Assembly (NCBI RefSeq): GCF_018069705.1
Contig: NZ_CP072943.1
Span: forward strand, 2,419,453 to 2,483,452
From: Aminithiophilus ramosus
GTDB lineage: Bacteria > Synergistota > Synergistia > Synergistales > Aminithiophilaceae
DNA length: 64,000 nt
Reading direction: 5' to 3'
Numbering within the stretch: position 1 is the first letter of the stretch; each line of letters begins with the position of its first letter. This document shows positions 2,858-47,197 of the stretch, in pieces. The position numbers were made by a program, and so were the translations under genes. The notes under the pieces are model-generated. The model was not told the DNA's origin, did no database searches, and saw only the letters and a list, made by a program, of their open reading frames with translations.

Positions 2858-3292
2858 ATGGCAGAACTGATCATGAGACACTACATCGTCAAGGACCACG
2901 ACTGCGAGCCTTGCCGCGAAACGGGGGAGACCCTCCGTAACCTGGGTTCCCAAATGGCCCGGCGGCTGGCGCCCCTGGGCGTGGAGCTGAAACTCCAGGA
3001 GGCCGAAATGGCCGAGGCCACGGAGGAAAACCTGCTCAGAGCCAACCAGGTCACCTTCAGCTGTCCCGAGAGCGAGATGGCGGAAATCGCCCTCGAGGAT
3101 ATTCTGGGACTCCAGGTCAGCCACGACAGCGTCGAAGGCGACGCCTGCACCGGCTGCCGCACCCTCATCTTCGAGGGACGGCGCTTCCAGAAACTTCCGC
3201 CGGGCCTCCTGACCGACGGGCTCGTCCGGGCCGCCTTCTCCATTCTCGAAGGGGGCGACGGAAGCGGCTGCGGCAGCTGCGGCGGCGGCTGA
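2858..3292 (+). CDS. DUF2703 family protein
   Basis: A 144-residue protein resembling the DUF2703 family, which is of unknown function. Visible features are a paired-cysteine start (DHDCEPCRETG, residues about 14-24), a second cysteine pair (DACTGCRTLIFEG) in the middle, and a C-terminal tail SGCGSCGGG. The cysteine pairs suggest metal or thiol chemistry, but that is inference. A good promoter and ribosome binding site precede it and strong hairpins follow it, so it looks like a single-gene transcript. Confidence 0.75.
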   Translation: MAELIMRHYIVKDHDCEPCRETGETLRNLGSQMARRLAPLGVELKLQEAEMAEATEENLLRANQVTFSCPESEMAEIALEDILGLQVSHDSVEGDACTGCRTLIFEGRRFQKLPPGLLTDGLVRAAFSILEGGDGSGCGSCGGG

Positions 3293-3305
3293 GGCGTCTG
3301 AAAAA

Positions 3306-3384
3306 GACCGCCGTCGGCGGTCCTTAACGAGCGAGAAGAGGCCGGACGAAGCGACGGAAGTCGCTTCGTCCGGCCTCTTCTCGC
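3306..3384 (+). terminator. Tandem hairpins after the DUF2703 gene
   Basis: A small hairpin (GACCGCC gtc GGCGGTC, 3306-3322) is followed by a perfect 25-bp stem with a GGAA tetraloop (arms 3331-3355 and 3360-3384). Neither is followed by a T-run, so intrinsic termination is not assured. The long stem may act as an RNA stabiliser or a barrier to read-through into the repeat array. Confidence 0.55.
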
Positions 3385-3469
3385 AGGCCATCGCGGGAGG
3401 GAGAGGGTTTCACCTTTCCGAGAGCGCGACCTCGGCAACGGAAGGTTTGACCCGGGAGTAGACGAACCC

Positions 3470-15760: not shown

Positions 15761-15780
15761 CTACTGAAAGTCTATTTGCG

Positions 15781-16662
15781 TTATTCCTCAAATACAAATT
15801 TTTCTGCTATAGATTCAAATAAAGATCTATTCCAGTTATCTACATAACGTTTATCATATATAAATGGATACAAATCACTTTTAGCTGATTCCACATCCAA
15901 AGTCAGCACTTGTTCCATATATAATTCAATCACATCTTCTTTGCGAAGAGGATGAGAAGAATTCCAATGGCCACTGTGCCTTAATTTGTCTTCCAAATAA
16001 GGAACATTGATTGCGGCCTTTTTTTGAACAAACCAGAGACAATCGTACCAATCTCTACCTTTTACTCGCGTCCCCCATGTTCTACAAAGCAAAGCATGCA
16101 TCTTCCCAGAGAATAGGCAAGATAGAGTCATTGTGCGCAAAGGGAAGGCTATAGGGAAAAGATGATAGGTAATTTTATCTTTGAAATTTCTAGCTTTTCC
16201 AGTATCTACTTCTAATTTTATTTTGACAGTTTGATTTTTTGGTAAAATTTTTATTACATCAGATAATACCTGTGGAACAGCTAGAGAAAATATCCCCGTA
16301 AGAGGTTCCGTCTTGATTTGAGCGGAGGCAATTCCTCCAGTAGATATTTTCTGTTTCGCCTCAAATGAAGCTTCCACCTCAAAGTCACGTAAGGATTTCT
16401 CTACTGTCAATCCAAATGAATTTAGATCAATGCTTACTGCAGATGATAGAAGCGAAAAATCCAGATCCTCAGAAAACCGATCAAGTCCATGGAGAATTCG
16501 TAGCGCAGTGCCTCCATAAAAAGCGGCAAACTCAAAAAACCCACCTTGGTAAAGACTAAAAAGTATAATTTCTTGAAGTACTTCTTTTAATGCCTTTATA
16601 GCGGTTTCAGGATCTTTGATTTCGAAACGAGAAAGCATTTCTCTTACAATTTCAACTGCCAT
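15781..16662 (-). CDS. AbiEii/AbiGii-type nucleotidyltransferase toxin
   Basis: A 293-residue protein with the family motif FYGGTALRILHGLDRFSEDLDF (about residues 48-69): a GG[T] nucleotide-binding turn and the DxD-like acidic pair. A later KIKLEVD supplies the third acidic strand. AbiEii proteins are the toxin of type IV abortive-infection systems; they are nucleotidyltransferases thought to act on tRNA or nucleotides. It overlaps the upstream antitoxin gene by 11 bp. The gene is AT-rich, unlike its GC-rich partner. It lies between two repeat arrays. Confidence 0.85.
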   Translation of the reverse strand: MAVEIVREMLSRFEIKDPETAIKALKEVLQEIILFSLYQGGFFEFAAFYGGTALRILHGLDRFSEDLDFSLLSSAVSIDLNSFGLTVEKSLRDFEVEASFEAKQKISTGGIASAQIKTEPLTGIFSLAVPQVLSDVIKILPKNQTVKIKLEVDTGKARNFKDKITYHLFPIAFPLRTMTLSCLFSGKMHALLCRTWGTRVKGRDWYDCLWFVQKKAAINVPYLEDKLRHSGHWNSSHPLRKEDVIELYMEQVLTLDVESAKSDLYPFIYDKRYVDNWNRSLFESIAEKFVFEE

Positions 16663-17329
16663 AGGGGTTCACTCCCTTCCATCGCGTGAAAAACGAGGCA
16701 AGAGCCGTCACTTTTCGGGAGCCATAGGCTTTCCCGAAGCGAAAAAGCTCTTCGACGTTCACGTCGATCCAGAAGCTCTCTTCCAGACGGAGGTCCTCGG
16801 CAAGATAGGTCTCCCAATCGACTGAGGAAGGGAGGTCTTCCATCCAGATTTTGTCGGCCAGTGCTTTCTCGGGAGAGGCTACAAAAAACCGTTCCGTACT
16901 ACCCATGCTGTCCGGCAAGGTTGCCAGTGTACGGCCCAGGCCGAAAGCCCCTTCGGGGATGCGTGCGTAGGTGAAGGTTCCTGCGGGAGATCGATATTCT
17001 CTGCTGCGCCGCGGGGTAACGGAGGTGAAGGTCTCAGCCGACTCGGGGATGAGGCCATGAAATTGGAGGGCATATTCGAGAGAAAGAGTGGAAGGGAGGA
17101 GCAGCTGATTGGCGAGCCATCGCACATGGAGGGATCGACTCCGCCAGAGAGGACCGAGAACAAACCATTCACGGCTGATCCGTTGCACAACCTTTTTTGC
17201 CGCCAGAGAGGCGATGCAATCCTGAGGGCGAAGGTAGCCGCGTCGCGAAAGGACCTCGACCAGGAGGCTTCGCGGAAATTCCTCTCTGCCGAGCTCTGCT
17301 ATTAATTCTGGAATCATAATTCTGGCCAT
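16652..17329 (-). CDS. AbiEi-type antitoxin / transcriptional regulator
   Basis: A 225-residue protein with an N-terminal winged-helix-like segment (FPRSLLVEVLSRRGYLRPQDCIASLAAKKVVQRI) and the typical AbiEi middle part (LSLEYALQFHGLIPE, FTSVTPRRSREY, SPEKALADKIW). AbiEi proteins repress their own operon and neutralise the toxin. The start at 17329 has a GGGGGAG site and a good promoter 20 bp upstream. Its GC content is like the chromosome, whereas the toxin gene is AT-rich. Confidence 0.78.
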   Translation of the reverse strand: MARIMIPELIAELGREEFPRSLLVEVLSRRGYLRPQDCIASLAAKKVVQRISREWFVLGPLWRSRSLHVRWLANQLLLPSTLSLEYALQFHGLIPESAETFTSVTPRRSREYRSPAGTFTYARIPEGAFGLGRTLATLPDSMGSTERFFVASPEKALADKIWMEDLPSSVDWETYLAEDLRLEESFWIDVNVEELFRFGKAYGSRKVTALASFFTRWKGVNPYGS

Positions 17330-17347
17330 GCATCTCCCCCTGGATCC

Positions 17348-17375
17348 ATTATATCATCAAAAAAACACGATACAA
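17348..17375 (-). promoter_or_regulatory. Promoter of the AbiE-type operon
   Basis: On the minus strand: TTGTAT (17375-17370), 16 nt, TATAAT (17353-17348), giving a very short leader before the ATG at 17329. A small inverted repeat CGAC/GTCG (17387-17399) lies just upstream and could be part of an operator. Confidence 0.6.
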
Positions 17376-17459
17376 AGCTATGAATCCGACAAAAAGTCGA
17401 TCTTTAGGCGTTATTTAGTTAAATTTCAATTTGTGAATCCACTAGTCAGACCCGTTCTT

Positions 17460-18700
17460 TAGGTGCGGCAGTTAGGGCCGCTCCGGAAGAAAGGCAAGTT
17501 CTGCGCCGCAGCCGTTGCTTCTCCTGGGAGCGTGGGCATCCTGCCCGCGCCCGCCCCGAAGGGGCGATGGGTTCCCTGCACGTCTCCCTCGCCGCCGAGG
17601 TGACGTCGTTCGAGTCGGAAAACCCTGCGGGACGAGAAATCCGTCCCGCGCGCCGCCAAGATGGCCGCGCTCCCAGCAAGGGCAAAACCTCTCCGCGACC
17701 GAGTTCGTCTGCTTCCGGGCCACCACTTCCGTCGCCGAGAGCGCGTTCCCAGCAGGGGCAAAACCTCTCCGCCGCAGCCGTGTTTTCCTGGGAGCGTGGG
17801 CATCCTGCCCGCGCCCGCCCCGAAGGGGCGGTGGGTTCCCCCGACGTAACCGTCACCATCAAAGGAACATCGTTTGAGCCGGAAACCCTGCGGGACGGTG
17901 GCCCCGTCCCGCGCGCCGCCAGGGATGGCCGCGCTCCCAGCAGGGGCAAAACCCGCGATCGCAGCCGGGGTTTCCCGGAAGCGCCATCTTCTCGGCCGCT
18001 CCGGAAAGAACGGAAAGCTTCATGTCACGGCCGTTGCCCTTCCTGGGAGCGTGGGCATCCTGCCCGCGCCCGCCCCGAAGGGGCGGAGGGTTCCCCCACG
18101 CCATCGGCACCGAAGTGACGGCGACCGAGGCCGAAAACCCTGCGGGACGAGAAATCCGTCCCGCGCGCCGCCAGGGATGGCCGCGCTCCCAGCAGGGGCA
18201 AAACCTCTCCGCGACCGAGTTCGTCTGCTTCCGGGCCACCACTTCCGTCGCCGAGAGCGCGTTCCCAGCAGGGGCAAAACCTCTCCGCCGCAGCCGTGTT
18301 TTCCTGGGAGCGTGGGCATCCTGCCCGCGCCCGCCCCGAAGGGGCGGTGGGTTCCCCCGACGCCATCGCCGAAGTGACGGCGACCGAGACCGGAAACCCT
18401 GCGGGACGGTGGCCCCGTCCCGCGCGCCGCCAGGGATGGCCGCGCTCCCAGCAGGGGCAAAACCCCCGTGGCCAGGCGAAGCCGCGTTTCCAGCAGGGGC
18501 AAAACCCCCGTGGCCAGGCGGAGCGGCGTTCTCAGCAGGGGCAAAACCCCCGTGGCCAGGCGGAGCGGCGTTCTCAGCAGGGGCAAAACCCTTTCGCTGC
18601 GGGGTCCGTCTTACCCGGGTCAAACCTTCCGTCGCCGACTGCGCGCTCCCAGCAGGAACAAAACCCGCGATCGCAGCCGGGTTTATCTGGAAGCAACCTC
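17460..18700. repeat. GC-rich repeat array, cluster 4, with a 42-bp tandem repeat
   Basis: Hairpin units of the same family as clusters 1-3. From 18451 to about 18618 there are four copies of a 42-bp unit (GCAGGGGCAAAAC plus CCCCGTGGCCAGGCG). The period is a multiple of three, which explains the repeated peptides in open frames here. The array lies between the AbiE operon and the Rpn-type nuclease gene. Confidence 0.9.
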
Positions 18701-18740
18701 GTGTTTCGCTCTCTCGCGAATCAGGGCAGGGACAAGACTC

Positions 18741-19874
18741 TCATTCGCGCCCCTCGGCCAGAGCGCGCACCCGACTCTCGGGCAGCTCCGTCAGATCGGC
18801 GACGGTCGCCACATCCATGCCCCGGGCCAGCATGCGGCCAGCCATCTGAACCCGAGCGCGTTCACTTCCCTTTTCCATGCCTTTCTCCATGCCCTTTTCC
18901 ATGCCCTTCTCCATGCCCTTCTTTATCCCTTTTCTCTCGCTGATGCTGACATACATGCGTCTCGCCTCCTTGTCCCGTTCCAGTTCCTCTTCCCATTCCT
19001 CGTATTCCCGGGAACTCTCGTCGTCGGTGATGTGGATGACGCCTTCCATGAAGACAAGCAGCTGGGCCTTTTCGTCGTGGCTCCAGCCCCGATCGTCGAG
19101 AAGAAGCAGCATTTCCTTCAGGTAGTCCAGCTTGCGCGCCTCGTTCCCACGGCTTTTCCAGGCGCGCAGGCCCGCCAGGTGGGCCAGGTCGAAGGGGTTG
19201 TCGCTGGCTTTCAGTTTCTCTTCGTCTCCTTCGAAGATCTTTACGACGGGGAATTCGTAAAGGACTCGGGTGCCGTATCGTTCCCAAAGATAGCAGCCCT
19301 GCGACTGGCTCGGCGGGAGCGGCTCGATGAGGAAGGCCAAGCCGACGACGGGCCTTCGGTAGCGCCCCTCAAGAAGGCCTCGGTAGCGGTGCATCCTGAG
19401 GGGGAAGTTTTCGTTGCCTCCCCTTCCCTGGACTTCGGCGTGGAGGAGAATCCAGGCGCTCTCTCCTTCCGCGAGTGGGACGTCGGCCAGAAGGTCGACG
19501 TAGCGGTTCGAGTCGGGGTCTCCCCCTTCGGCCTTTCGGGTGAACCGGGCGAGACGGCGAAGTTCTTTGTCGAGGAAGGTGACGGGGCGAGTCGGATCGA
19601 GGTCGGAGGCCAGGTCGGGAAGGACGGACCGGAGCATGGGGACGAAGAATCGCGAGAGGAGGTCTTTCCAGAGCGAGTCGTCCTGGCGGAATGCGGTCCT
19701 TTCGGCGATGTCCTCCGAGGCATGCGGAGTCTGTCCTGCGACTCCGGCGGCAATCCCTTCCGGCGACGGGGAGTCCCTTCCGCCGCCTCGACGGGCGGCA
19801 TCCTTTTGAGCCGTGCCTTCCGCCCCTGGCGAGGAGAAGGGGGTCTTCGGTGCGGTGCCTTTTTCCTCTCTCAC
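18741..19874 (-). CDS. Rpn family PD-(D/E)XK nuclease / putative transposase
   Basis: About 377 residues from a GTG at 19874 that has GGGAGGT 8 nt upstream; the frame stays open further upstream but only into repeat sequence. The core DSLWKDLLSRFFVPML, VDLLADV and LLHAEVQGRG gives the D...ExQ active site of the Rpn (recombination-promoting nuclease) group. The C-terminus has four tandem GMEK units followed by a short LAEGRE helix, a tail typical of this family. Rpn proteins are DNA endonucleases linked to RecA-independent recombination. Repeat arrays flank it on both sides. Confidence 0.82.
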   Translation of the reverse strand: MREEKGTAPKTPFSSPGAEGTAQKDAARRGGGRDSPSPEGIAAGVAGQTPHASEDIAERTAFRQDDSLWKDLLSRFFVPMLRSVLPDLASDLDPTRPVTFLDKELRRLARFTRKAEGGDPDSNRYVDLLADVPLAEGESAWILLHAEVQGRGGNENFPLRMHRYRGLLEGRYRRPVVGLAFLIEPLPPSQSQGCYLWERYGTRVLYEFPVVKIFEGDEEKLKASDNPFDLAHLAGLRAWKSRGNEARKLDYLKEMLLLLDDRGWSHDEKAQLLVFMEGVIHITDDESSREYEEWEEELERDKEARRMYVSISERKGIKKGMEKGMEKGMEKGMEKGSERARVQMAGRMLARGMDVATVADLTELPESRVRALAEGRE

Positions 19875-19989
19875 AGACGGGCCACCTCCCTCACGTCGGC
19901 AGAGGAGCCGAGGTCTCTGCCCCTTTGTCTGAAGTCTAGCACATTTCGAAAGTCGGGATCGGATCGCTCCGTTCCTCGGCCGTCTCCGC

Positions 19990-20800
19990 CTCACGCGCGA
20001 CATCGTAAGGACCCCACCGCCCCTTCGGGGCGGGCGCGGGCAGGATGCCCACGCTCCCAGGAGAGGCAACGGCCGCGACGTGGAGCTTGAGGTTTTGCCC
20101 CTGCTGGGAACGAGCTCTCGGCGACCGAAGGGTTGGCCCGGAAGCAGACGAACTCGGTCGCGGAGAGGTCTTGCCCCTTGCTGGGAGCGCGGCCATCTTG
20201 GCGGCGCGCGGGACGGATCTTTCGTCCCGCAGGGTCTCCCGACTTGAACGACGTCCCCTCGGCGATGAGGGAGACGTGCAGAGAACCCACCGCCCCTCCG
20301 GGGCGGGCGCGGGCAGGATGCCCACGCTCCCAGGAGAGGCAACGGCCGCGACGCGGAGTCTTCCGTTCCTTACCGAATCGAACAGAGACAATAGAATACC
20401 CAAGAAAACCTCCCGGCGGAGAGGTTTTGCCCCTGCTGGGAACGAGCTCTCGGCGACGGAAGGGTTGGCCCGGAAGCAGACGAACTTGGTCGCGGAGAGG
20501 TTTTGCCCCTGCTGGGAGCGCGGCCATCTTGGCGGCGCGCGGGACGGGGCCACCGTCCCGCAGGGTCTCCCGGCTTGAACGACGTAACCTTGATGGCGAC
20601 GGCGAAGCGTGGGGAACCCGCCGCCCCTCCGGGGCGGGCGCGGGCAGGATGCCCACGCTCCCAGGAGAAGCAACGGCCGCGACACGGAACTTTCCGTTCC
20701 TTCCCAAGCGAACCGAGACGATGATGCTCCCGGGAAAGGCAACGGTCGCGGCGCGACGACGAAGCGGTCCGTCCGGGAAACGCAGATCCGATGAGGGTGA
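19990..20800. repeat. GC-rich repeat array, cluster 5
   Basis: The same family, including GCGGGACGGATCTTTCGTCCCGC hairpins and GGGCAGGATGCCCACGCTCCC motifs, in three blocks of about 300 bp each carrying a conserved tail such as GGCAACGGCCGCGACG. It lies between the Rpn-type gene and the 3' end of the APC permease operon. Confidence 0.9.
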
Positions 20801-26465: not shown

Positions 26466-27692
26466 ATGAAAAAAACAAAAATTATGTTCTTTCAAAAGGC
26501 ACATCAAGTGCTATTTGCAATATCGTTACTTGGTTATTTATCACCATATTACACGTGGGGGCGTTTGAATAGATTTTTTTTCTTGGTCGTTCCAGTAATT
26601 TTATTCGTATCTTTTGAAATTTTACATTTAAAGACCAACTGCAAAAAAATAATTTTAAGTATTGGAATAACCATATTAACGAGCTATTTCCATTTAAGGG
26701 CGTATTTTATGGAATTTTCTTTCCTGGGATTTATGTTTTTCATATTAAGTGTTTTTCTTTTTTTAATCTTACTCTCAATTCCTCCAAAAGAAGCTATTGT
26801 TTCATGGAAAAATTTCCTCTGGTTATTTGCTTTGACTCTTGTCCCGGGTATTTTTATATATTTTTTAAGATTTAATTTTGATATTCCCTTCAAAGAAATA
26901 CCCCCATTAAATTCTTTAAAAAACTATAACTACTTAACTTTTGCTGGATCTTTGTTCCCGAATTTGTCAAGCACACAATCACTTCGTTTCCACGGAATTT
27001 ACGGCGAACCAGGCGCTTTAGGAACTTATGCTGCCCTTATTCTTGGCTTTGATAAATTTAGAAATAAAATTCCGTGTATGATAATTTTATTTTCTGGAAT
27101 TATATCGTTTTCTCTTGCTTTTTGTGTGTTGATGATATTTAATATATTTTTTATTTTTAAAAGAAAGCTATTATGGGTTATCTTTCTTTTTGCTATCGCG
27201 TTGGCTGGAACGACTTCTGATGAACTTCAAACAATGTTTTTTTCTCGTCTCACATTCACTGAAGAAGGATTTTCTGGAGATAACCGAGACAAAGATCAAT
27301 TCAAGCAAGAATTCGATTATTTTATTACCAACAACAATATTTCTGATGTTGTTGTTGGTAAAGGATTTCGAGCCAGCAACCTTGCGGGCGGCGCAGGAGG
27401 AGCCTCCGTTCGCATGTTTGTTTATGACTATGGATTATTAGGACTTTTTTTTGTTGCGGTTGTATATTTTTCTATTTTAGCAAAAAATAAAACTAAAAAT
27501 AATTTTTTAGCAATGCTAGCTTATTTTATGAGCATGTATCAACGACCTTGGATTTACAATTGGGATTTTATATTTATTTTTTATTTTGGATCGTTTTTTG
27601 ACTTCATGGAGTCGGGCCTAAATTTTCAGCAACAAAATTTAATCAAGCACTCCGATCAAGGATCCCAAGGAGAAAAGGAGGGAATAGTTTGA
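26466..27692 (+). CDS. wzy: Probable O-antigen/polysaccharide polymerase (Wzy-type membrane protein)
   Basis: A 408-residue protein with about ten hydrophobic segments and a large hydrophilic loop (about residues 260-310) before the last helices, the topology of Wzy and O-antigen ligase proteins. [21 protein letters not shown] resembles the first periplasmic loop motif of the family. Sequence conservation in Wzy is always low, so the call rests on topology and on neighbours (wzx, dTDP-sugar genes). It is strongly AT-rich, which suggests horizontal origin. Its stop overlaps the rfbB start. Confidence 0.7.
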
Positions 27693-28741
27693 AAATTATT
27701 ATCACCGGAGGAGCCGGTTTCATAGGCAGCAACCTCGTCCACTCGGCTCTGTCCGAGGGGCATGACGTGATCAACCTCGACAAGCTCACCTATGCCGGGA
27801 ACCTCGATTCCCTGGCCGAGGTCATCGATCACCCCCGCCACACCTTCGTCGAAGGCGACATCGCCGACGACGAGCTGCTCACCCGGCTTTTCGCCGACCA
27901 TCGTCCCCAGGCCGTGATGAATCTCGCCGCCGAAAGCCACGTGGACCGCTCCATCGACGGCCCCGAATCCTTCATTCAGACCAACGTCATCGGTACCTTC
28001 CGCCTCCTCGAAGCGGCACGGAATCACTGGAAAACCCTGCCTGACGACGAAGCCCTTTCTTTTCGCTTCCTTCACGTCTCCACCGACGAAGTCTACGGTT
28101 CTCTGGGACCTGATGGGTTCTTCACCGAAGAAACCCCCTACGCCCCCAACTCTCCCTATTCGGCCTCGAAAGCCTCGTCGGATCACCTGGTGCGGGCCTA
28201 TCACCACACCTACGGCCTGCCGACGATCACCACCAACTGCTCCAACAACTACGGCCCCCGCCAGTTCCCGGAAAAGCTCATCCCCCTCGTCATCAACAGG
28301 GCTCTGGCGGGCGAAAACCTCCCCGTCTACGGCGACGGCCTCAACATACGCGACTGGCTCTACGTGGAGGACCATTGCCGAGCCCTCCTGACAGCCCTCG
28401 AAAAGGGAGCGCCGGGCGAGACCTACAACATCGGCGGCAACAGCGAACGGACCAACATCGCCATCGTCCGCACCCTGTGCGCCCTTCTCGACGAAAAGGC
28501 GCCCCGCGGAGACGGCAAACCCTACGAAGAACAGATCACCTTCGTCAAAGACCGTCCCGGCCACGACAGACGCTACGCCATCGACGCGGACAAGATCAAA
28601 AGGGAGCTGGGCTGGCAACCGAAAGAGAGCTTCGAAAGCGGCATGGGAAAGACCGTCGACTGGTACCTGGCAAACCGAGCGTGGACCGCGGCCATTCTCG
28701 ACGGCAGCTATCGATGCGAAAGGCTGGGATTGAGCCAGTGA
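27689..28741 (+). CDS. rfbB: dTDP-glucose 4,6-dehydratase
   Basis: A 350-residue extended SDR enzyme. [11 protein letters not shown] binds NAD, the catalytic triad region reads [11 protein letters not shown] and [15 protein letters not shown], and [14 protein letters not shown] is family-specific. It makes dTDP-4-keto-6-deoxyglucose, the branch point for dTDP-deoxysugars. The start is TTG at 27689 with AAGGAGG upstream, overlapping the wzy stop (TTGA). It is GC-rich, in sharp contrast to wzy. Confidence 0.95.
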
Positions 28742-29157
28742 GCGCTTTGATTTCTCTCCGGCAGGCACAAACGATCAAACGACAAGAAGCGTGCGAAGAA
28801 TGTCTTTGCGTTTGGGAAGCCGGTTGTCACGTTCCTTTCGAGATCAAGCGGGCCTACCACATCGGGGGCGTTGAAGCGGGCATCGTTCGGGGGCATCACG
28901 CCCACAAAAGCCTGGAACAAATTCTCCTCTGTCCCTATGGAACCATCGAAGTAACCCTTGACGACGGGACCCTGAAAGAATCTGTGCTCCTTGACCGTCC
29001 CGACAAAGGACTCTATGTTGGGCCAGCCCAATGGCGTACCATGAAGTGGATTGTCACCGGCAGTGTCCTTTTTGTCTTTGCATCCCAGCACTACGATGAG
29101 GCGGACTACATTCGGGATTACCATGCTTTTCTTGCCTTCGCCAGGAAGGAGCAATGA
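28738..29157 (+). CDS. fdtA: dTDP-4-keto-6-deoxyglucose 3,4-ketoisomerase (FdtA/QdtA type)
   Basis: A 139-residue cupin. [40 protein letters not shown] is the WxcM/FdtA signature with the catalytic His pair. It moves the keto group from C4 to C3 so that a 3-amino sugar can be made. Whether the product has the fucose or quinovose configuration cannot be judged from sequence. The GTG start overlaps the rfbB stop (GTGA). Confidence 0.9.
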
Positions 29158-29158
29158 G

Positions 29159-30256
29159 ATGGCCATTCCTTTCAATCGATTGGCGCCACTTTATGAACAG
29201 CACCGAAACGAGTATGACGAGGCTGCTCTCCGCGTCCTTGCGTCGGGTTGGTATGTTCTCGGCAAAGAATTAGAAGCCTTCGAACAAACCTTTGCCTCCT
29301 TTATCGGAACAAGCTACTGCGTAGGCCTCAACTCCGGTCTTGACGCCCTCACGTTGGGTCTGCGGGCAATGGGAATAGGACCCGGTGATGAGGTTATCGT
29401 TCAGGCCAACACCTACATTGCTACTGTTTTAGCCATTTCGGAAAATGGGGCTACTCCCGTCTTCGTCGAGCCCGATTCGTTCTACGGCATTGATCCGGCA
29501 CGAATTGAGGAAGCCATCACGCGCAGGACCAAGGCGATCATGGCTGTTCACCTTTACGGTCAGCCATGCGATATGGAGTCCCTGACAGCACTCTCCCAGA
29601 AACACGGGATTCCGCTGATCGAAGATTGCGCACAATCTCACGGCGCTTCTTTTCGCGGATGCATCACCGGCAGCTTCGGCAGTTTGGGCTGCTTTAGTTT
29701 CTTCCCCACCAAGAACCTCGGTGCCTTCGGCGATGCAGGCGCAATCGTGACCGATGACAAGGTCTTGGCCGAAAAACTCCGTATGCTCCGCAACTACGGC
29801 AGCCGGAAGAAGTACTACAACGAGGTCTGCGGCGTCAATTCACGTCTCGATGAGCTTCAAGCTGCTCTGCTTCAAGTCAGATTAAAACATCTGGAAGAGA
29901 TTTTGCAGGAACGGACCACTATTGCGGAATACTACATGAACCACATTACCAACGACGCCATCATCCTTCCGAAAACCCGACCTCAGGCGCGCCATGTCTG
30001 GCATCTTTTCGTCATCGAAACGGAATCGCGAGACACATTGCAGCATTATTTGGAGCAAGAGGGCATTCAAACACAAATTCATTACCCTGTCCCTCCCCAT
30101 CTGTCACAGGCCTACGCCCATTTAGGCTTTCCGGAAGGAAGCTACCCCTTGACAGAACGGATCGCTAAAAGAACCCTGAGCCTCCCCCTCTACAACGGCA
30201 TGACCGAAGGAGAAATGGACCAGGTCTGCCGAACCGTCGACGCATTTCGTGTTTGA
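29159..30256 (+). CDS. fdtB: dTDP-3-amino-3,6-dideoxyhexose transaminase (FdtB/QdtB type)
   Basis: A 365-residue DegT/DnrJ/EryC1 aminotransferase. LNSGLDALTLGLRAMGIGPGDEV, EDCAQSHGASF and the PLP lysine in CFSFFPTKNLGAFGDAGA are clear. Together with FdtA next door it makes a dTDP-3-amino-3,6-dideoxyhexose. The ATG at 29159 follows AAGGAGCAA and lies 1 nt past the fdtA stop. Confidence 0.92.
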   Translation: MAIPFNRLAPLYEQHRNEYDEAALRVLASGWYVLGKELEAFEQTFASFIGTSYCVGLNSGLDALTLGLRAMGIGPGDEVIVQANTYIATVLAISENGATPVFVEPDSFYGIDPARIEEAITRRTKAIMAVHLYGQPCDMESLTALSQKHGIPLIEDCAQSHGASFRGCITGSFGSLGCFSFFPTKNLGAFGDAGAIVTDDKVLAEKLRMLRNYGSRKKYYNEVCGVNSRLDELQAALLQVRLKHLEEILQERTTIAEYYMNHITNDAIILPKTRPQARHVWHLFVIETESRDTLQHYLEQEGIQTQIHYPVPPHLSQAYAHLGFPEGSYPLTERIAKRTLSLPLYNGMTEGEMDQVCRTVDAFRV

Positions 30257-30265: not shown

Positions 30266-31012
30266 ATGATGAAGGGCGTCATCTTAGCCGGAGGGAAAGG
30301 CACCCGTCTTTACCCCTTGACGCGGACCATCAACAAACACCTGCTTCCCGTCGGACCGGAACCGATGATCTATAACCCCATTCGCAACATGGCCGCCTGC
30401 GGCATTCGCGATGTCCGTATCGTCACGAGCTCCGAGCACATGGGACAGATGGTTGGAGCGTTAGGCAGCGGCTCTGACTTCGGTCTCAACTTCTCTTACA
30501 GCGTCCAGGACGAAGCCAACGGCATCGCTGACGCTCTCCGCCTCGCCGAGCACTTCGTCGGCAATGACAACGTCCTCGTACTCCTCGGCGACAACGTATT
30601 TGAGGAACCTATCGATTATTTCGTCGACAACTACCGCCAGAAACAACAGGGACAAGGAGCCCGGGTCCTTCTTGTCGAAGTCGCGGACCCGCAGCGTTTC
30701 GGCGTCGCCGCACTGGACGAGAAGAATGTCGTCGAAATACAGGAAAAACCCGAATGCCCCAAGAGTAACTACGCCGTCGTAGGGGCCTACATCTACGATT
30801 GTCGAGTCTTTGACATCATCAGCCACATCAAGCCCTCGGCCCGTGGCGAATATGAGATCACCAGCGTCAATAATCGCTATATCGAACTTGGGACCCTTCA
30901 ATATGACATCGTCACAGGCGGACGTTGGATGGACACAGGCACCTTCGAATCCTATTACGAGGCCAACTGCATCATGTTCGAAAAATACCGCAAAGAAATG
31001 GGCGTCGAATAA
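30266..31012 (+). CDS. rfbA: Glucose-1-phosphate thymidylyltransferase, short form
   Basis: A 248-residue nucleotidyltransferase with LAGGKGTRLYPLTRTINKHLLPVG at the N-terminus, LLGDNVFEEPI around the metal site, and GGRWMDTGTFESYYEAN near the end. It is about 40 residues shorter than typical RmlA because the C-terminal dimerisation part is missing, as in several archaeal and bacterial homologues. It supplies dTDP-glucose for rfbB. GAGGAGG precedes the ATG. Confidence 0.9.
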   Translation: MMKGVILAGGKGTRLYPLTRTINKHLLPVGPEPMIYNPIRNMAACGIRDVRIVTSSEHMGQMVGALGSGSDFGLNFSYSVQDEANGIADALRLAEHFVGNDNVLVLLGDNVFEEPIDYFVDNYRQKQQGQGARVLLVEVADPQRFGVAALDEKNVVEIQEKPECPKSNYAVVGAYIYDCRVFDIISHIKPSARGEYEITSVNNRYIELGTLQYDIVTGGRWMDTGTFESYYEANCIMFEKYRKEMGVE

Positions 31013-31016
31013 AACC

Positions 31017-32423
31017 GTGTCACGCGCTCGTCTCTTCCTTGAAAATTTCTTTATCTACGGGGTGGGCAACGTACTGACCAAGGCCGTACCCTTTCTCATG
31101 CTACCCGTTTTGACGAGAATGATCACCGATCCCGCCGTTTTTGGGGTTTATGACATCTATACCATTGTCATCCGTTTTGGCGAACCTCTAGTCATTCTTG
31201 GGAGTTACGATGCTATGTTTCGCCTTTTCTTTGACGATAAAGACCCGCTTTTCCGCAAACAGGTCTGCTCCAGTTCCCTGGCCATTGTCACGACAACAAG
31301 CTTTGCGGCTCTTGCTCTGACCGCTTTCTTCTGGGTCTTTGGTCTATCCTTTTGGGACGGAAGCTATCGTTGGATGATCGCCACTGCCGGAATTGTCATC
31401 GCCGTACACGCCATGCGTTCCGTGGTCGCCGCCCCGACCCGGATGCAGAACAAGCGGGCAACGATCATCCTCCTCTCCCTCTTGGGCCCTCTGATCTACT
31501 ATGCATTTGCCCTGTTGCTGGCCCGGGAAGGGAAACCTTTGGAAGGCCTTGTCTTCGGCAACTTAGTAAGCGGCCTTGTGCTTCTGCTGGGTTACGGCTT
31601 ACTGAACCACTCCTTTTTTTCTCACGGCCATGTAAAGAGCGAGCAGGTACGGGTCCTTCTTAAAATAGGAGTTCCCCTGGCGCCTACTTTTCTTATATAT
31701 TGGATTTTCACTTCCTGCGATCGCTTCATGATCGGCCACATGATGGGAATGGAAGCAGTCGGCCTGTACGGAGTCGGAGCGCGTCTTTCATCCATTAGCC
31801 AGGGGATCTATATGGCTTTTGCCGGAGGGTGGCAATATTTCGCCTTTTCCACCATGAAAGACAAAGATCACACGCACCTCATGTCACAGGTCTTTGAAAT
31901 TCTAGCTATTCTTTCGTTTTTAAGTCTATTTATCTTACTCCCCTGGGTAGATTGGATATTTAAAATCATGGTCGCCGAGCCCTACCGCTCTGCATCGACT
32001 ATTTTTCCTTATCTTTTCTTTGCGCCTCTCTTGTTGATGCTTTCGCAAATAGCTGGCACGCAATTGCAAGTTGAAAAGAAAACCTACCTCAGTACTATAT
32101 CTCGACTAGTTGGGGCAGTCACAAACATCATCCTAAACGCTCTTTTTATTCCTCGCTGGGGAATTCTCGGCGCAGCTCTAGCGACAATAATAGGCTATTT
32201 TGCAATGACTCTCTCAATTACCTGGGTTGTTTTAAAAATGAATCGACTTATGTTCAATATGAAATTTGCTATTATCACTCTATCTGGATCATTGCTTCTG
32301 CTCCTATATCCTCTACTAAGAACAACTATTATATTTTATATATTTTTTTCAGCTATTATGTTGTTATCATACAAATCAGAGATATTTTTATTTATTTTAA
32401 CAAAAACAAGGAGGATTACATGA
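31017..32423 (+). CDS. wzx: Polysaccharide flippase (Wzx / MATE-like)
   Basis: A 468-residue protein with 12-14 hydrophobic segments. The start FLENFFIYGVGNVLTKAVPFLMLPVLTRM is the usual polysaccharide-export first helix pair. It should flip lipid-linked repeat units across the inner membrane. I place the start at GTG 31017, 4 nt past the rfbA stop. The 5' half is GC-rich and the 3' half (from about 31860) is AT-rich, so the gene looks like a recombinant or a boundary of an imported cassette. Confidence 0.88.
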   Translation: MSRARLFLENFFIYGVGNVLTKAVPFLMLPVLTRMITDPAVFGVYDIYTIVIRFGEPLVILGSYDAMFRLFFDDKDPLFRKQVCSSSLAIVTTTSFAALALTAFFWVFGLSFWDGSYRWMIATAGIVIAVHAMRSVVAAPTRMQNKRATIILLSLLGPLIYYAFALLLAREGKPLEGLVFGNLVSGLVLLLGYGLLNHSFFSHGHVKSEQVRVLLKIGVPLAPTFLIYWIFTSCDRFMIGHMMGMEAVGLYGVGARLSSISQGIYMAFAGGWQYFAFSTMKDKDHTHLMSQVFEILAILSFLSLFILLPWVDWIFKIMVAEPYRSASTIFPYLFFAPLLLMLSQIAGTQLQVEKKTYLSTISRLVGAVTNIILNALFIPRWGILGAALATIIGYFAMTLSITWVVLKMNRLMFNMKFAIITLSGSLLLLLYPLLRTTIIFYIFFSAIMLLSYKSEIFLFILTKTRRIT

Positions 32424-32896
32424 ACTCACCAGACTTTTTTGGGAAATATTTGGAAGAATATTCAATTGGGCAAATTTTCAAGCATTGGCCAGGTAAAACT
32501 GTCACAGAAGGAGATAATAACTTATTTTGCCTTCTCACTATGAACCATCACCCAATTCACCTTGACTCTCATTATGCCGCCCGGAGTCAACATGGAAGGC
32601 CCCTTGTCGTTGGAACCTATGTTTTTAGCCTTGTTGTTGGATTAACGGTACGCGATATTAGCGGCAAGGCAATAGCCAATCTTGAATATGAATCAATCAT
32701 ACATCACGCTCCCGTCTTTATCGGGGACACTCTTTATGCCGAAACGGAAATAATTGATGTAAAAAAGTCCCGTACTAAACTTGATAGAGGAATAATTTAC
32801 GTAGAAACCAGTGCTTTCAATCAAAAAGGGATTAAAGTTCTCAGTTTCAGGAGAAAAGTACTCATCCCCACAAAGGGAGGAGAAAAATGTGACTAA
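32420..32896 (+). CDS. MaoC-like hydratase (mesaconyl-/itaconyl-CoA hydratase type)
   Basis: A 158-residue single hotdog protein. FGKYLEEYSIGQIFKHWPGKTVTEGDNNLFCLLTMNHHPIHLD is the pattern of MaoC proteins that accompany CitE-type lyases, with NHHPIHLD as the active-site stretch. Such enzymes add or remove water on C4-C5 dicarboxylic acyl-CoAs. The GAGGATTAC ribosome site precedes an ATG that overlaps the wzx stop (ATGA). Being inside a sugar operon two genes from a CitE-like lyase is unusual. The substrate is not known. Confidence 0.85.
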   Translation: MNSPDFFGKYLEEYSIGQIFKHWPGKTVTEGDNNLFCLLTMNHHPIHLDSHYAARSQHGRPLVVGTYVFSLVVGLTVRDISGKAIANLEYESIIHHAPVFIGDTLYAETEIIDVKKSRTKLDRGIIYVETSAFNQKGIKVLSFRRKVLIPTKGGEKCD

Positions 32897-33572
32897 AAAG
32901 CTTATTATCATAGGGGGAGAAGGAAACGGCGGTGTTGTGGCCGCCTGCATAGAAGACATCAACAGAATACACAAAAAATCTGTCTATGAAATTATCGGTT
33001 TTCTCAATGACTATCATGCCAACAAAATTTGCAATTATCCCGTTGTTGGAAAAACTGAAACCGCCAAGGAATGGGCAAAGGAAGGTTACCTTTTAAGTTT
33101 TGCTATACATCCTATCGGGCATGGATCGTTACGAGTGAAACTCTTCGACCACCTAGAAATCCCCGATGAATCCCTGGCCACGATAGTGCATCCTACTGCC
33201 TTCATCGCCTCTAACGCCACTCTTGAACCGGGTGTGTTTGTCATGGCTAATTGCTATATCGGACCACAGACACAACTAGCAAAATCTGTTTTCGTCATGG
33301 CAAATTGTGTTGTCGGACACAATGATTACATAGGTCCCTTTTGCCATCTCAGTGCGGGATCAGTAGTTAGCTCCTACATCACCATCGGAAAAGCAAGCGA
33401 CATCTGCCTTTCAGCATCGATTTTAGAAAAAGTCTCCATAGGTGATTACTGTGTCATTGGTGCGAAATCGCTTTTGACGAAATCAACCGGAAATTCTGAG
33501 ATGTATATCGGTATTCCAGCGAAACTGCACCGCAGAATAGAAGAGAAAGAATATACACTACAGGAGAAATAA
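32889..33572 (+). CDS. PglD/NeuD-type acyltransferase
   Basis: A 227-residue protein. An N-terminal nucleotide-sugar domain starts KLIIIGGEGNGGVVAA, and a left-handed beta-helix follows (ATLEPGVFVMANCYIGPQTQLAKSVFVMANCVVGHNDYIG), with the catalytic His in VVGHND. The family N- or O-acylates UDP- or dTDP-amino sugars using acyl-CoA. Here it could acylate the dTDP-3-amino sugar made by FdtB, possibly with the acyl-CoA handled by its two neighbours. The GTG start overlaps the MaoC gene. Confidence 0.82.
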   Translation: MTKKLIIIGGEGNGGVVAACIEDINRIHKKSVYEIIGFLNDYHANKICNYPVVGKTETAKEWAKEGYLLSFAIHPIGHGSLRVKLFDHLEIPDESLATIVHPTAFIASNATLEPGVFVMANCYIGPQTQLAKSVFVMANCVVGHNDYIGPFCHLSAGSVVSSYITIGKASDICLSASILEKVSIGDYCVIGAKSLLTKSTGNSEMYIGIPAKLHRRIEEKEYTLQEK

Positions 33573-33586
33573 AGGAGGGAATCGTT

Positions 33587-34486
33587 ATGGAAAATGGTTT
33601 TCTGCTACGAAGCATGATGTTCGTCCCAGGACACAACGATAAACTCCTTGAAAGCGCCTCCAGATCTGAAGCAGATGCACTTATTCTTGACCTTGAAGAT
33701 TCTGTCATGCCTGCCCACAATAAAAGTATCGCTCGGACTAAGATCAAAGAATATATAAACTCGGGAAAACTCTCTCGTTTCTCTATTTTCCCTCGCGTTA
33801 ATGATAGAGAAAGTGGAATGCTCTTAAAAGACGTACAAGAACTTACAATTAAAGGCATTGATGGGTTTGTTTATCCTAAAAGCAAAAAACCTGAAGATAT
33901 CTATTTCTTTGACAAACTCCTTGAAACAATCGAATACGATAAAGAATTTCCAATTGGTACTTTCAAAATAGTTGCCCTAATGGAAACGACTTCAGCTATT
34001 ATGAATGCCCAGGCCATTGCTGAATCGTCGAAACGACTTGTGGCTCTTGCTTTCGGATGCGAGGATTATATCACGGATCTTCAAGGCATTCACGACTCCA
34101 ACGGGACGAGCCTCTTTGGAGCTCGGTTTATGATTGCTAATGCGGCAAGAGCAGCAGGCATCATTCCAATTGACACGGTTCATATCAAAGTTCACGACCT
34201 AGAAGACCTTGAAAGAAACTTACAGATAGCTAAAAACATGGGATTTGAGGGAATGCTTGCATTAAGCCCCAAAGAACTTCCTTTAATACATCAATATTTC
34301 TCTCCTTCTGATGAAGAAATTATAAAAGCTAAAGAAATGCTTGAACTTGCAAAAGAAGCTCAATCAGAAGATAAGGGAGTAACTGTTCTTAAAGGTCGTT
34401 TTGTAGGGTCGCCTTTTGTTTTAGCATCCAAGAAAATAATTGAGAAACACGAAAAAATAAAATTTAAAGTTTATAAGAATAAATAA
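33587..34486 (+). CDS. HpcH/HpaI aldolase / CitE-like lyase
   Basis: A 299-residue TIM barrel. LRSMMFVPGHNDKLLESASRSEADALILDLEDSV at the N-terminus and ALMETTSAIMNAQAIA, LAFGCEDYITDL are the CitE/malyl-CoA lyase marks, with the acidic metal ligands present. These enzymes join or split acetyl-CoA or pyruvate with glyoxylate- or similar keto-acids. The last part, including the C-terminus, is AT-rich. It is downstream of a MaoC hydratase and acyltransferase, and is directly followed by an IS256-type element. Confidence 0.85.
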   Translation: MENGFLLRSMMFVPGHNDKLLESASRSEADALILDLEDSVMPAHNKSIARTKIKEYINSGKLSRFSIFPRVNDRESGMLLKDVQELTIKGIDGFVYPKSKKPEDIYFFDKLLETIEYDKEFPIGTFKIVALMETTSAIMNAQAIAESSKRLVALAFGCEDYITDLQGIHDSNGTSLFGARFMIANAARAAGIIPIDTVHIKVHDLEDLERNLQIAKNMGFEGMLALSPKELPLIHQYFSPSDEEIIKAKEMLELAKEAQSEDKGVTVLKGRFVGSPFVLASKKIIEKHEKIKFKVYKNK

Positions 34487-34488: not shown

Positions 34489-35910
34489 GATAACGTACGA
34501 TATTTTCGCACATTAGTCTAGATTTTCTATAAGCAGTAGCCCCCCGCAAGGGTTATGTTTGAGGTTATCGATGCCACAAACATTATCCCGAGGGAGGGCT
34601 ACCGCAAAGGCACGATACCACAGAAGGCGCTCGAAATGCAGCAGGAAGTTCGAAGATCATCCGCATCGACGAAGAGGAGATCCGCTCGCACCTTGACCCG
34701 ATCGTCAGGGGAACCGCATTCAGACACGCTGAACTCTCTGCTCGACGCCGAGGCCGACGCCATCTGCCAGGCCGGGCGCTATGGGAGGACGCCTGAACGG
34801 CTCGACACCCGGGCCGGTTCTTACAGCCGCAGGCTTCACACCCAGGCCGGCGAGGTCAGTCTCAAGGTTCCCAAGCTTCGGAAGCTCCCCTTCGAGACGG
34901 CGATCATCGAGCGTTACCGCCGCAGGGAGAGCTCCGTCGAAGAGGCTCTGGCGGAAATGTATCTGGCCGGCGTCTCCGTCCGGCGGGTCGAAGACATCAC
35001 CGAAGCCCTCTGGGGAACCCGGGTGAACCCCTCCACCGTGAGCGATCTGAACCAGAAGATCTACGGTCGCATCGAGGAGTGGCGTAACCGACCGCTCCAC
35101 GGGGAATATCCCTACGTCTTCCTCAGGCGGCAGGTTGAAAAAGAGCTGGGGCGGCGAGGTCCGGAACATCTCGGTTCTCGTGGCCATCGGCGTCAACGAG
35201 CAGGGATACCGCGAGGTGCTCGGCGTCTGCGAGGGAGGCAGAGAGGACGGCGAAAGCCGGTCCTCCTTCCTGAGGCACCTCAAGGAACGTGGGCTCGAGA
35301 GAATCCGTCTCGTTACGTCCGACAAAAGCCTGGGACTCCTGGAGACCTTGCCCCACTTCTTCCCCGAAGCCAGGTGGCAACGCTGCGTGGTCCCCTTCTA
35401 CCGCAACGGCTACAGCGCGGTTCCACGCGGCAAGGCACGGGAAGTGGCCCTCATGCTCGAGGCGATCCACGGTCAGGAAGATCTGCCGGCCGCCCGGGAA
35501 AAGGCCGAGGCCGTCGTCGAAAAGCTCGAGGCCATGAAGCTCCGGAAGGCCTCAACGATCGTGAAGGAGGGCTGCGAGGAAACGCTGAGCTACTTCCCCT
35601 TCCCCTCGGAACAGGGGAAGAGACTTCGGACCGACAGCTGGAGCGTCTCAACAGGGAGATTCGTCGCCGGACCAAGGTCGCAGGGAACTTCCCCGATGGG
35701 GAATCGGCCCTGATGCTCGTCTCGGCCCGAGCCAGGCCTGTGGCCTCCACCAAGTGGGGCAAACGAGCCTACCTGAACATGGAATGCTTGCGGGAACAGG
35801 ACCGGGAACAACGGCAAGAATCCGCTGCGATCTCAAGAAAATCAGACATAGCCCTTCAGGGGCCTGCTGCCTCAAAAACGAAAGTGCGAAAAATACTGGA
35901 CAGAACTTAC
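34489..35910 (+). mobile_element. IS256-family element, decayed
   Basis: Left end GATAACGTACGATATTTTCGCAC at 34489 and right end CGAAAAATACTGGACAG near 35888-35904. The inner parts of the two ends are imperfect inverted repeats sharing GTGCGAAAA. Partial copies of the same element lie at 37084-37191, 37846-38067, 41194-41218 and 47008-47197. I could not define a target duplication. Confidence 0.8.
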
Positions 35911-35964: not shown

Positions 35965-37128
35965 CTGAAAATTCTTCACATTAATTCTTACTATGACAAA
36001 CCAGATCGCTTTTATCGATTTTTTTTTGAAACACAAATTCGACAAGGGCATAATATATCTGTCTATGTTCCCATGTTTAGCGAAGCCAATGAATTAGAAA
36101 CAAAAAATTACCCTGAATGCACACAAGCAGTCTTGCTAGGCAAGAAAATTAATGGATTTTTTTTTCATAAAAAACAAAAAAAAATAGTTTCTAGAGCAAT
36201 GGATATCTATTCATGTGATAATTTTGACATTATTCATTCACATAGCCTGTTTACAAATGGCAATACAGCAAGAATACTCAGCAAAAAATTAAATATACCA
36301 TACATAGTTGCCGTTCGAAATACAGATATAAATACATTTTTTAAATTTATGCCTCATCTAAAGAAGTTGGGAATTACTATTTTACTTGAAGCAAGTAAAA
36401 TAATTTTTATCAATAAACCCTATAGAGACTTCGTGCTATATAAAATAGTTCCGAATAAACATAAACTAGCTATTGCAGAAAAATCCGTTATAATAAATAA
36501 TGGAATTGATGATTTTTGGGTTCAAAATAAGCTTAATGCTCCTAAAATTTGCAATGAAAAATCCATAAAACTCCTAACAGTCGGCGATATCACGAAAAAT
36601 AAGAATCAAATAACAACATTGCTTGTAACTAAATTGCTAAAAATGCGCAACTATAATGTATCGCTTATTGTAGTTGGGGAACCCAAGGATAAAAAAATAA
36701 TGCAAAAAATACTTTCTAGTAACATGTTACAATATATCCCTAAGCAAACTAAGGACAAGTTGCTTCGGATATATAGAAATGCTGATATTTTTATTCTTCC
36801 ATCGCATAAAGAAACTTTTGGTCTTGTTTATGCAGAAGCAATGACACAAGGATTGCCTTTGGTGTACACGAAAGGACAAGGATTTGATGAAACATTTGAG
36901 GAGGGTTGTGTTGGTTATCATGCAGATAGTCGCAATGTAAGCGAAATTGCAGATAAAGTAGAGTGTGTTTTAAAAAATTACAAGTCCCTCTCTCAAAACT
37001 GCATAGATTTATCCGTTCGGTTTGATTGGACAGAAATAGCAAAAATCTATAATTTAATATATGATTATTCTGTCAATAACTACGATAACGTACGATATCT
37101 TTCGCACATTCATTCGAGCTCCCTATAG
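35965..37128 (+). CDS. Glycosyltransferase family 4, C-terminus altered by an IS
   Basis: About 387 residues from CTG at 35965, which has AGGAGGA upstream; the next start (ATG 36073) would delete the first strand. The N-terminus KILHINSYYDKPDRFYRFFFE and the donor-site motif ILPSHKETFGLVYAEAMTQGLPLV are GT4 features. The last 14 residues come from an IS256 end inserted at 37084, so the native C-terminus is lost. It is AT-rich and horizontally acquired in style. It may still work, since GT4 C-termini often tolerate loss of the last few residues. Confidence 0.75.
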   Translation: MKILHINSYYDKPDRFYRFFFETQIRQGHNISVYVPMFSEANELETKNYPECTQAVLLGKKINGFFFHKKQKKIVSRAMDIYSCDNFDIIHSHSLFTNGNTARILSKKLNIPYIVAVRNTDINTFFKFMPHLKKLGITILLEASKIIFINKPYRDFVLYKIVPNKHKLAIAEKSVIINNGIDDFWVQNKLNAPKICNEKSIKLLTVGDITKNKNQITTLLVTKLLKMRNYNVSLIVVGEPKDKKIMQKILSSNMLQYIPKQTKDKLLRIYRNADIFILPSHKETFGLVYAEAMTQGLPLVYTKGQGFDETFEEGCVGYHADSRNVSEIADKVECVLKNYKSLSQNCIDLSVRFDWTEIAKIYNLIYDYSVNNYDNVRYLSHIHSSSL

Positions 37129-37191
37129 GCAGTAGCCCCCCGCAAGGGTTATGTTTGAGGTTGTCCGAGGCCACAAACATCGATCCCGGGG
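37084..37191. mobile_element. Truncated IS256-family left end
   Basis: Starts with GATAACGTACGATATCTTTCGCAC, matching the left end at 34489 with a few changes, and shares the CAGTAGCCCCCCGCAAGGG hairpin. It breaks off where an IS3-type terminal repeat begins at about 37192. Confidence 0.8.
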
Positions 37192-37340
37192 GTATGGTGA
37201 CCCCATTATCAAGACCAATTGAAGCCCGAAGTTCATTCGAGTCAGACTGCCATCGGTCCCTCCCGATCGGCAAAGGGAACCTCCCGCGGTGTCCTGTAGT
37301 TCAGTGATGCGTGAAGCCTCTCGTCGTTGTAGAAATCCCT
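37192..37340 (-). pseudogene. IS3-family transposase (OrfB) C-terminal fragment
   Basis: Encodes the last about 33 residues, DFYNDERLHASLNYRTPREVPFADREG, nearly identical to the end of the larger OrfB at 42.5-43.3 kb, plus the terminal repeat ATGGTGACCCCATTATCAAG. The rest is missing. An unexplained 70-bp stretch (37341-37411) separates it from the IS21 end. Confidence 0.85.
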
Positions 37341-37411: not shown

Positions 37412-37845
37412 TGTTTTCGTCAATCGAAAAGGTACCCATCATGATCCTGTAAAAGGAGCCCACCCCTACTGCCGTCAGGCGTTCAGTTCTTTGGTGCTGC
37501 GCTGAGCGAATCGATAGGATTCCCCCTTGAAGACGAAGATGTGAGCGTGATGGGTCAGGCGGTCCAGGAGCGCCTCGGTCAGGGTGGCGTCGCCGAAGAC
37601 TTCAGGCCAGCGGCTGAACTCCAGGTTCGTGGTGATGCAGACGATCTTCCGTTCGTACCGATCCGCGAAGAATTGGAAGAGAGGTGCTCCGCCGGGACCC
37701 AGTCCCAAGTAGCTCAGTTCGTCGACGATCACCAGGTCGTACCGGTCGTAGCTTTTGAGGAGCTTGGGAAGCCGGTGCTCGTCCTGGGCGAGGAGCAGTT
37801 CCCGGGCTAGGGTCAGGGCGGTGGCGAAACGAACCGAACATCCCG
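37412..37845 (-). pseudogene. IS21-family istB fragment with IS21 end
   Basis: Begins with the IS21 terminal sequence TGTTTTCGTCAATCG, then reads IstB from the stop at 37475 back through LVIVDELSYLGLGPGGAPLFQFFADRYERK. It is interrupted by an IS256 right end at about 37846. It is nearly identical to the same part of the larger IS21 at 44.6-47.0 kb. Confidence 0.88.
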
Positions 37846-38067
37846 GTGCTGTCCAGTATTTTTCGCACTTTTGTCTTCGAGGCAGCAGGCCCTTGAAGGG
37901 CTATGCCTGATTTTCTTGAGATCACAGCAGGTTCCTGCTGCTGTTCCCGGTCCTGTTCCCGCAAGCATTCCACGTCCACGTAGGCCCGCTTGCCCCACTG
38001 GGTGGAGGCCACATGCCTGACTCGGGCCGAGACGAGCATCAGGGCCGATTCCCCAGCGGGGAAGTTC
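37846..38067 (-). mobile_element. Truncated IS256-family right end with transposase C-terminus
   Basis: On the minus strand it reads SALMLVSARVRHVASTQWGKRAYVDVECLREQ, the end of the IS256 transposase, and ends with GTCCAGTATTTTTCGCAC. It is inserted in istB on one side and cut by an ISL3 end (38068) on the other. Confidence 0.85.
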
Positions 38068-47007: not shown

Positions 47008-47197
47008 CTCCTCTTCGTCGATGCGGATGATCTTCGAACTTCCTGCTGCATTCCGAGCGCCTTCTGTGGCATCTGCATGTGCGGTAGCCCTCCCTCGGGA
47101 TGATGTTTGTGGCCTTGACACCTCAAACACAACCCCTGCGGGGGGGCTACTGCTTATAGAAAATTTAGACCAATGTGCGAAAATATCGTACGTTATC
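47008..47197 (-). mobile_element. Truncated IS256-family left end
   Basis: Reads, on the minus strand, GATAACGTACGATATTTTCGCAC from 47197 and ends in SSKIIRIDEEE of the transposase at the IS21 border (47007). It is the same sequence as 34489-34690. Confidence 0.82.

Follow-up and report, generated by a model that had tools for sequence, protein, structure and literature searches.

MaoC-family hydratases and CitE-family lyases are known as partners in coenzyme A (CoA) metabolism, as in the ethylmalonyl-CoA pathway, where Mch is a mesaconyl-CoA hydratase and Mcl an L-malyl-CoA/beta-methylmalyl-CoA lyase, and in the degradation of itaconate by the Ich/Ccl (RipB/RipC) pair. Genes of the same two families flank a PglD/NeuD-type acyltransferase gene in a stretch of 64,000 nucleotides of Aminithiophilus ramosus (RefSeq assembly GCF_018069705.1, contig NZ_CP072943.1, positions 2,419,453 to 2,483,452 of the forward strand), hereafter called the window. 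A preliminary description had placed this trio at 32420-34486, within an operon for a thymidine diphosphate (dTDP)-linked 3-amino-3,6-dideoxyhexose, and both points are borne out: the three open reading frames are intact, each preceded by a GGAGG-type ribosome-binding site, the GTG start of the acyltransferase gene (32889) overlapping the MaoC stop, and genes for RmlB, an FdtA/QdtA-type 3,4-ketoisomerase, a C3 transaminase and RmlA lie together upstream. Neither of the two protein families is novel, nor are the sugar pathway and the general notion that a pathway may have its own N-acyl donor. Judged from the literature covered, the novelty lies in a MaoC protein co-inherited with a CitE-like protein that lacks an aspartate of its lid domain, forming a surface-glycan module in several phyla. 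We consider it probable (about 0.58) that this pair is a dedicated acyl-CoA-making module for N-acylation of amino sugars, with a C4-C5 dicarboxylyl group, hydroxylated or unsaturated, as the probable acyl group; a search of the open-access literature, with subscription papers mostly outside its reach, yielded no account of a MaoC/CitE pathway of this kind for surface glycans.

The resemblance to the Mch/Mcl system lies in the two families standing side by side, in the CitE fold and metal site, and in the MaoC protein, which is 55% identical to a Streptomyces MaoC inside an ethylmalonyl-CoA-pathway-like operon and whose nearest relatives with a known role are mesaconyl-CoA/beta-methylmalyl-CoA enzymes. 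In contrast, the window CitE is only about 29% identical to its counterpart and lacks the lid aspartate, and the MaoC gene has glycan genes instead of Ccr, Ecm, Mcl or Mcd genes as neighbours. The MaoC protein matches PF01575 (E = 1e-19, 70.6 bits, cut-off 27), being the only such match in the genome, and the mesaconyl-CoA hydratase family PF19315 (2e-16, 60.7 bits, cut-off 26.5). The likeness to Ich/Ccl consists in the same pairing and in RipB/Ich being the best NCBIfam match of MaoC, but both proteins score far below the equivalog cut-offs (137.7 against 340 bits for RipB/Ich, 127 against 375 bits for RipC/Ccl), no CoA-transferase gene adjoins them and the lid aspartate is absent. The CitE-like protein matches PF03328 (1e-42), and its best NCBIfam family, TIGR01588 citE, is also reached at a low score (196 bits, cut-off 443). 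The suggestion in the preliminary description of an Ich/Ccl- or Mch/Mcl-like pair is thus not supported in that form: MaoC is, by its sequence, of the mesaconyl-CoA type, but the CitE-like protein, with its low scores and without the aspartate held to protonate or deprotonate the alpha-carbon of the acyl-CoA, does not fit an ordinary Ccl or Mcl partner.

On the sugar side, anthrose-type pathways combine a hydratase, an aminotransferase and an acyltransferase, the hydratase providing the altered acyl-CoA with which an amino-dideoxyhexose is N-acylated; they differ from the present locus in using a crotonase-type hydratase and a 4-amino sugar, and in having no CitE. The pathways to 3-acetamido-3,6-dideoxyglucose (Qui3NAc) and 3-acetamido-3,6-dideoxygalactose (Fuc3NAc), encoded by QdtA-C and FdtA-C, share RmlA/RmlB, the FdtA/QdtA-type isomerase and the QdtB-type transaminase with the window, whereas the window acyltransferase is PglD-like rather than of the FdtC/QdtC type, and MaoC and CitE are added. 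This acyltransferase carries PglD_N (PF17836, 5e-8, 33.9 bits, cut-off 23.4) and Hexapep (3e-14, 52.4 bits, cut-off 27) domains, falls slightly below the cut-off of TIGR03570 for NeuD/PglB/VioB (147.5 against 160.8 bits), and has VioB (7txp, 3e-17) and perosamine N-acetyltransferase (4ea7, 2e-16) as its closest structures, QdtC (3fs8) being a weak match at 3e-5. Its motif VVGHND aligns with VVDHDC of 4ea7, the shared histidine being a candidate for the catalytic residue of the hexapeptide domain. Finally, N-malyl amino sugars, which are the product chemically expected from a malyl-CoA donor, occur in polysaccharides of Pseudoalteromonas rubra, Vibrio vulnificus and Flavobacterium columnare, but the carriers there are diamino uronic acids and not 3-amino-3,6-dideoxyhexoses (PMC3210612).

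A clade of CitE-like proteins in glycan loci

In the CitE-like superfamily, Arg76 and the lid residue Asp299 are reported to be conserved throughout, the sole exception being thioesterases, which have Glu, and the lid aspartate has been proposed to donate a proton to the enolate after cleavage (Zarzycki and Kerfeld, PMC3832036). Using the numbering of Rhodobacter sphaeroides malyl-CoA lyase for Asp42, Glu44, Asp45, Arg76, Glu141, Asp168 and Asp299, the alignment showed that the Mg-site residues Glu141 and Asp168, together with Glu44/Asp45, Asp42 and Arg76, are kept in every CitE sequence of a clade formed by proteins from glycan loci. At the lid position, the window protein (Gly274) and most clade members have Gly, five loci (L036, L039 and L209-L211) have Ser and L193 has Thr, so that Asp occurs in no readable clade sequence; L190, which is unreadable across the lid, is outside this tally. 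The aspartate was present in 14/14 comparison proteins, including two CitE paralogs from the same genome. All members of the clade have Glu159, and His169 is found in 45 of 50. The predicted structure of the window protein (predicted local distance difference test score 92.6) is a triosephosphate isomerase barrel with a C-terminal lid domain, best matched by human CLYBL (5vxc) and malyl-CoA lyase (4l9z). Because the lid aspartate is replaced by Gly, Ser or Thr in all readable members, the CitE proteins of this clade, judged by their sequences, are not ordinary Ccl, Mcl or CitE lyases.

The clade is monophyletic with a support of 100/99, and the window protein stands among sequences from the Kapabacteria class and the Bacteroidales order, apart from those of L024 and L025, which belong to its own phylum. 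The MaoC tree did not separate glycan-locus proteins from some Chloroflexi MaoC proteins; hence, MaoC alone cannot define the glycan group. These Chloroflexi copies appear to lie mostly within core-gene operons.

Three more genes that match the CitE family strongly are found in the genome outside the window (G000:C1 1324868, 915660 and 2676107). The second and third of them score identically and appear to be duplicates; the paralogs at 1324868 and 915660 keep the lid aspartate. In L172, L173, L198, L208 and L209 a second, diverged CitE-like protein is encoded upstream of MaoC, in which a lid Glu is present and Arg76 is lost, the reverse of the main CitE; the two proteins might make up for each other's loss within a mixed trimer.

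The pair was traced by two routes. In 84,980 genomes, a MaoC alignment picked out 80 loci, five of which have a CitE 40-63% identical to that of the window beside or near MaoC, surrounded by glycan genes (Kapabacteria, Cloacimonadota, a metagenome-assembled genome labelled Woesearchaeota, Anaerophaga and Carboxylicivirga). Whole-genome searches with CitE, made without any context requirement and counted at E <= 1e-48, found relatives in the class of the Kapabacterium (6/294 genomes), the phylum Cloacimonadota (23/125) and the order of Anaerophaga (19/393). Up to 20 kb of surrounding DNA was taken for such relatives, and 50 clade loci from Bacteroidales-order, Kapabacteria-class, Cloacimonadota and same-phylum genomes were analysed. 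MaoC adjoins CitE in nearly all of them. At least one glycan marker was found in 49 of the 50, an N-acyltransferase in 40 and a DegT transaminase in 26, while the 75 control loci, which surround other relatives of MaoC and come mostly from Actinobacteria and Chloroflexi, had neither an acyltransferase nor a DegT marker. Since the loci were picked by similarity and the markers scored by tblastn with reference proteins partly from the same loci, these are context counts and not a formal test. The fiftieth locus, L193, with the Thr lid, has nearby a gene for what looks like a family 2 glycosyltransferase. A chance neighbourhood of the pair with glycan genes was rejected, as it recurs across about 50 loci. 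The preliminary description had considered that the trio might be sought in other sugar loci, or might lie mostly outside them; the marker counts speak for sugar loci, and the full combination of FdtA, MaoC, CitE and PglD was found in four other loci (L170, L194, L198 and L202).

The PglD proteins of these four loci are the closest to that of the window (43-49% identity), and outside them only L208 has a relative of this kind (32%). Loci without fdtA combine the pair with other PglD types or, in one group, with an N-acyltransferase of the AAC(3) family, which in L036 and L039 directly follows CitE. Most simply, the type of acyltransferase would depend on the sugar, and the presence of MaoC-CitE on the acyl group. 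Many Cloacimonadota loci (L035, L179-L181, L183-L187 and L189-L192) share the order MaoC-CitE-CapK-NadA-flippase-like-family 2 glycosyltransferase-PglD-WbqC-DegT, and this glycan operon thus includes a quinolinate synthase, NadA (PF02445). In two same-phylum genomes (L026 in G095 and L027 in G099) broken MaoC remnants covering the last 46 residues were seen, with part of CitE in L027, which suggests a recent loss of the module. No relative was found in a CitE scan of viral contigs, and among the matches listed in the plasmid searches homologs stood in catabolic or citrate-lyase settings, with no clade member.

Proposed function of the pair and its alternatives

We infer the acyl group, the substrates, the order of steps and the step performed by the CitE-like protein as follows. 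The products of the upstream genes would make the dTDP-3-amino-3,6-dideoxyhexose, the 3-amino group of which would be N-acylated by the PglD-type enzyme. The co-inherited MaoC and CitE-like proteins would supply the donor, namely a short dicarboxylic acid, 2-hydroxylated or unsaturated (malyl/beta-methylmalyl or fumaryl/mesaconyl class), bound to CoA as a thioester; the CitE-like protein would join or remodel the acyl chain at its Mg site, and MaoC would hydrate or dehydrate the C2-C3 bond. As the lid aspartate is missing, the carbon-carbon step may rely on another acid/base, for which His169 is a candidate, start from a donor that needs none, such as a decarboxylating one, or be absent. Malyl-CoA carries the CoA on the same carboxyl (C4) as is engaged in a 4-malyl linkage. 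Amino sugars with N-(4-malyl) groups occur in bacterial polysaccharides (PMC3210612). Elsewhere in the genome, away from this locus, lie genes of the methylmalonyl-CoA mutase family, which make CoA precursors plausible. In a more specific and decidedly improbable version, the clade CitE would be a new type of carbon-carbon bond-forming enzyme that uses a malonyl- or methylmalonyl-CoA donor and, with MaoC, builds malyl or methylmalyl/mesaconyl-type N-acyl groups across several phyla; decarboxylation would yield the enolate, and Gly or Ser would leave room for the departing carboxylate, replacing the base Asp. The lid Gly and the mutase-family genes are consistent with this version.

Several observations count against a dedicated acyl-making module: the carbon-carbon step may not take place at all, given the missing lid aspartate, the acyltransferase gene is not adjacent to the pair in several loci and is lacking from the stretch covered in 10 of 50, and the relatives of PglD are mostly acetyltransferases using acetyl-CoA. 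It is accordingly conceivable, though doubtful, that the CitE-like protein performs no carbon-carbon chemistry and acts as a thioesterase or as a binding or gating partner, with MaoC producing, for instance, a 3-hydroxyacyl-CoA by hydration of an enoyl-CoA, as in anthrose-type pathways, and PglD transferring the product. Besides the loss of the lid aspartate in every readable clade sequence, this would agree with 3-hydroxybutyryl and 3-hydroxy-3-methylbutyryl being common N-acyl groups on such sugars (PMC3210612), and with the thioesterase group of the superfamily likewise departing at the lid position (PMC3832036). However, that group does so with a Glu which the clade proteins do not have, the fully kept Mg site, Arg76 and fold suggest that chemistry is retained, and MaoC is of the mesaconyl-CoA and not of the PhaJ type.

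That PglD merely acetylates the amine, while MaoC-CitE contributes to a different feature of the glycan, independent of the amino sugar, such as an O-linked or branched acid, appears unlikely to us. The closest PglD structures are indeed acetyltransferases, in many loci the acyltransferase lies several genes away from the pair, and L193 has no recognised transaminase or acyltransferase; yet the MaoC, CitE and PglD genes overlap or are adjacent in the window, L170, L202, L024 and L025, and in L036 and L039 it is an N-acyltransferase that stands immediately after CitE. A stray catabolic module of the itaconate, mesaconate or ethylmalonyl-CoA type, present in the locus by chance, could be imagined from the homologous MaoC and CitE genes of catabolic operons and from the AT-rich, strain-variable nature of the segment. 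We regard it as highly improbable and rejected it on distribution, as 50 glycan loci share the pair with a monophyletic, residue-altered CitE, in contrast to the 75 controls with no glycan acyltransferase or transaminase marker.

Gene content and variability of the locus

The features of the locus are listed in Table 1. The ketoisomerase is matched nearly equally by FdtA (2pa7, 3e-28) and QdtA (4o9e, 1e-26), and the gene set upstream of the trio supports a sugar with either the gluco (Qui3N) or the galacto (Fuc3N) configuration. Among the matches of the transaminase, we take structure 2oga to be DesV. A Pfam search with the first protein of the table gave no match.

Table 1. Features of the glycan locus in the window
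Feature	Position	Strand	Basis
Predicted membrane protein, possibly O-unit polymerase	26466..27692	+	Position and hydrophobicity only
RmlB, dTDP-glucose 4,6-dehydratase	27689..28741	+	TIGR01181 500.5 bits, cut-off 365
FdtA/QdtA-type dTDP-4-keto-6-deoxyhexose 3,4-ketoisomerase	28738..29157 (start approximate)	+	Cupin; PDB matches
C3 sugar aminotransferase, QdtB/DesV type (DegT)	29159..30256	+	PF01041 1e-118; PDB 3frk QdtB 3e-115, 2oga 1e-114
RmlA-type nucleotidylyltransferase	30266..31012	+	PF00483 2e-62; TIGR01207 243 bits, below cut-off 361
Wzx-like flippase	31014..32423 (start approximate)	+	PF13440 1e-14, PF01943 2e-12
MaoC-family hydratase/dehydratase, mesaconyl-CoA hydratase-like	32420..32896	+	PF01575, PF19315
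PglD/NeuD-type N-acyltransferase	32889..33572	+	PF17836, Hexapep; PDB VioB 7txp, 4ea7
CitE-like protein, glycan clade, lid Asp replaced by Gly274	33587..34486	+	PF03328; alignments; tree; structure model
Multi-copy insertion sequence (IS)-like element, probably decayed transposase	34489..35906	+	92% identical copies in same-species genome G066
Glycosyltransferase family 4 protein, probably same locus	36073..37128	+	PF00534 8e-30

Comparison with a genome of the same species, G066, revealed that the two match at 92-97% up to about 26395, after which G066 carries a different glycan cassette with a hexapeptide acyltransferase, a Gfo/Idh oxidoreductase and a protein reading like a Wzx flippase. 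The putative polymerase gene is the first in the window without a counterpart in G066, and the next match after the cassette is the IS-like element, which begins 3 bases past the CitE stop; this element, not listed in the preliminary description, lies between the trio and the glycosyltransferase gene. The content of guanine and cytosine, 58-66% left of the cassette, falls to 38-41% over MaoC, PglD and the start of CitE. The cassette looks like a horizontally acquired, serotype-type locus. Fragments of the IS-like element are also found at 37080-37192, 37845-38067 and 47008-47197, with further copies in G066. Elsewhere, part of the region at about 20000-20750 matches well over 100 places in G066, and related pieces recur at 1-5500 and 14900-20700, forming a large dispersed repeat family.

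In conclusion, the pair would represent a dedicated acyl-making module common to surface-glycan loci of Bacteroidales-order, Cloacimonadota, Kapabacteria-class and other genomes, and could account for dicarboxylic N-acyl groups, such as malyl, on bacterial amino sugars. The clade also provides a large natural set of CitE-like proteins in which one supposedly essential residue is missing while the rest of the active site is kept, and may thereby allow a direct test of the role of this residue.

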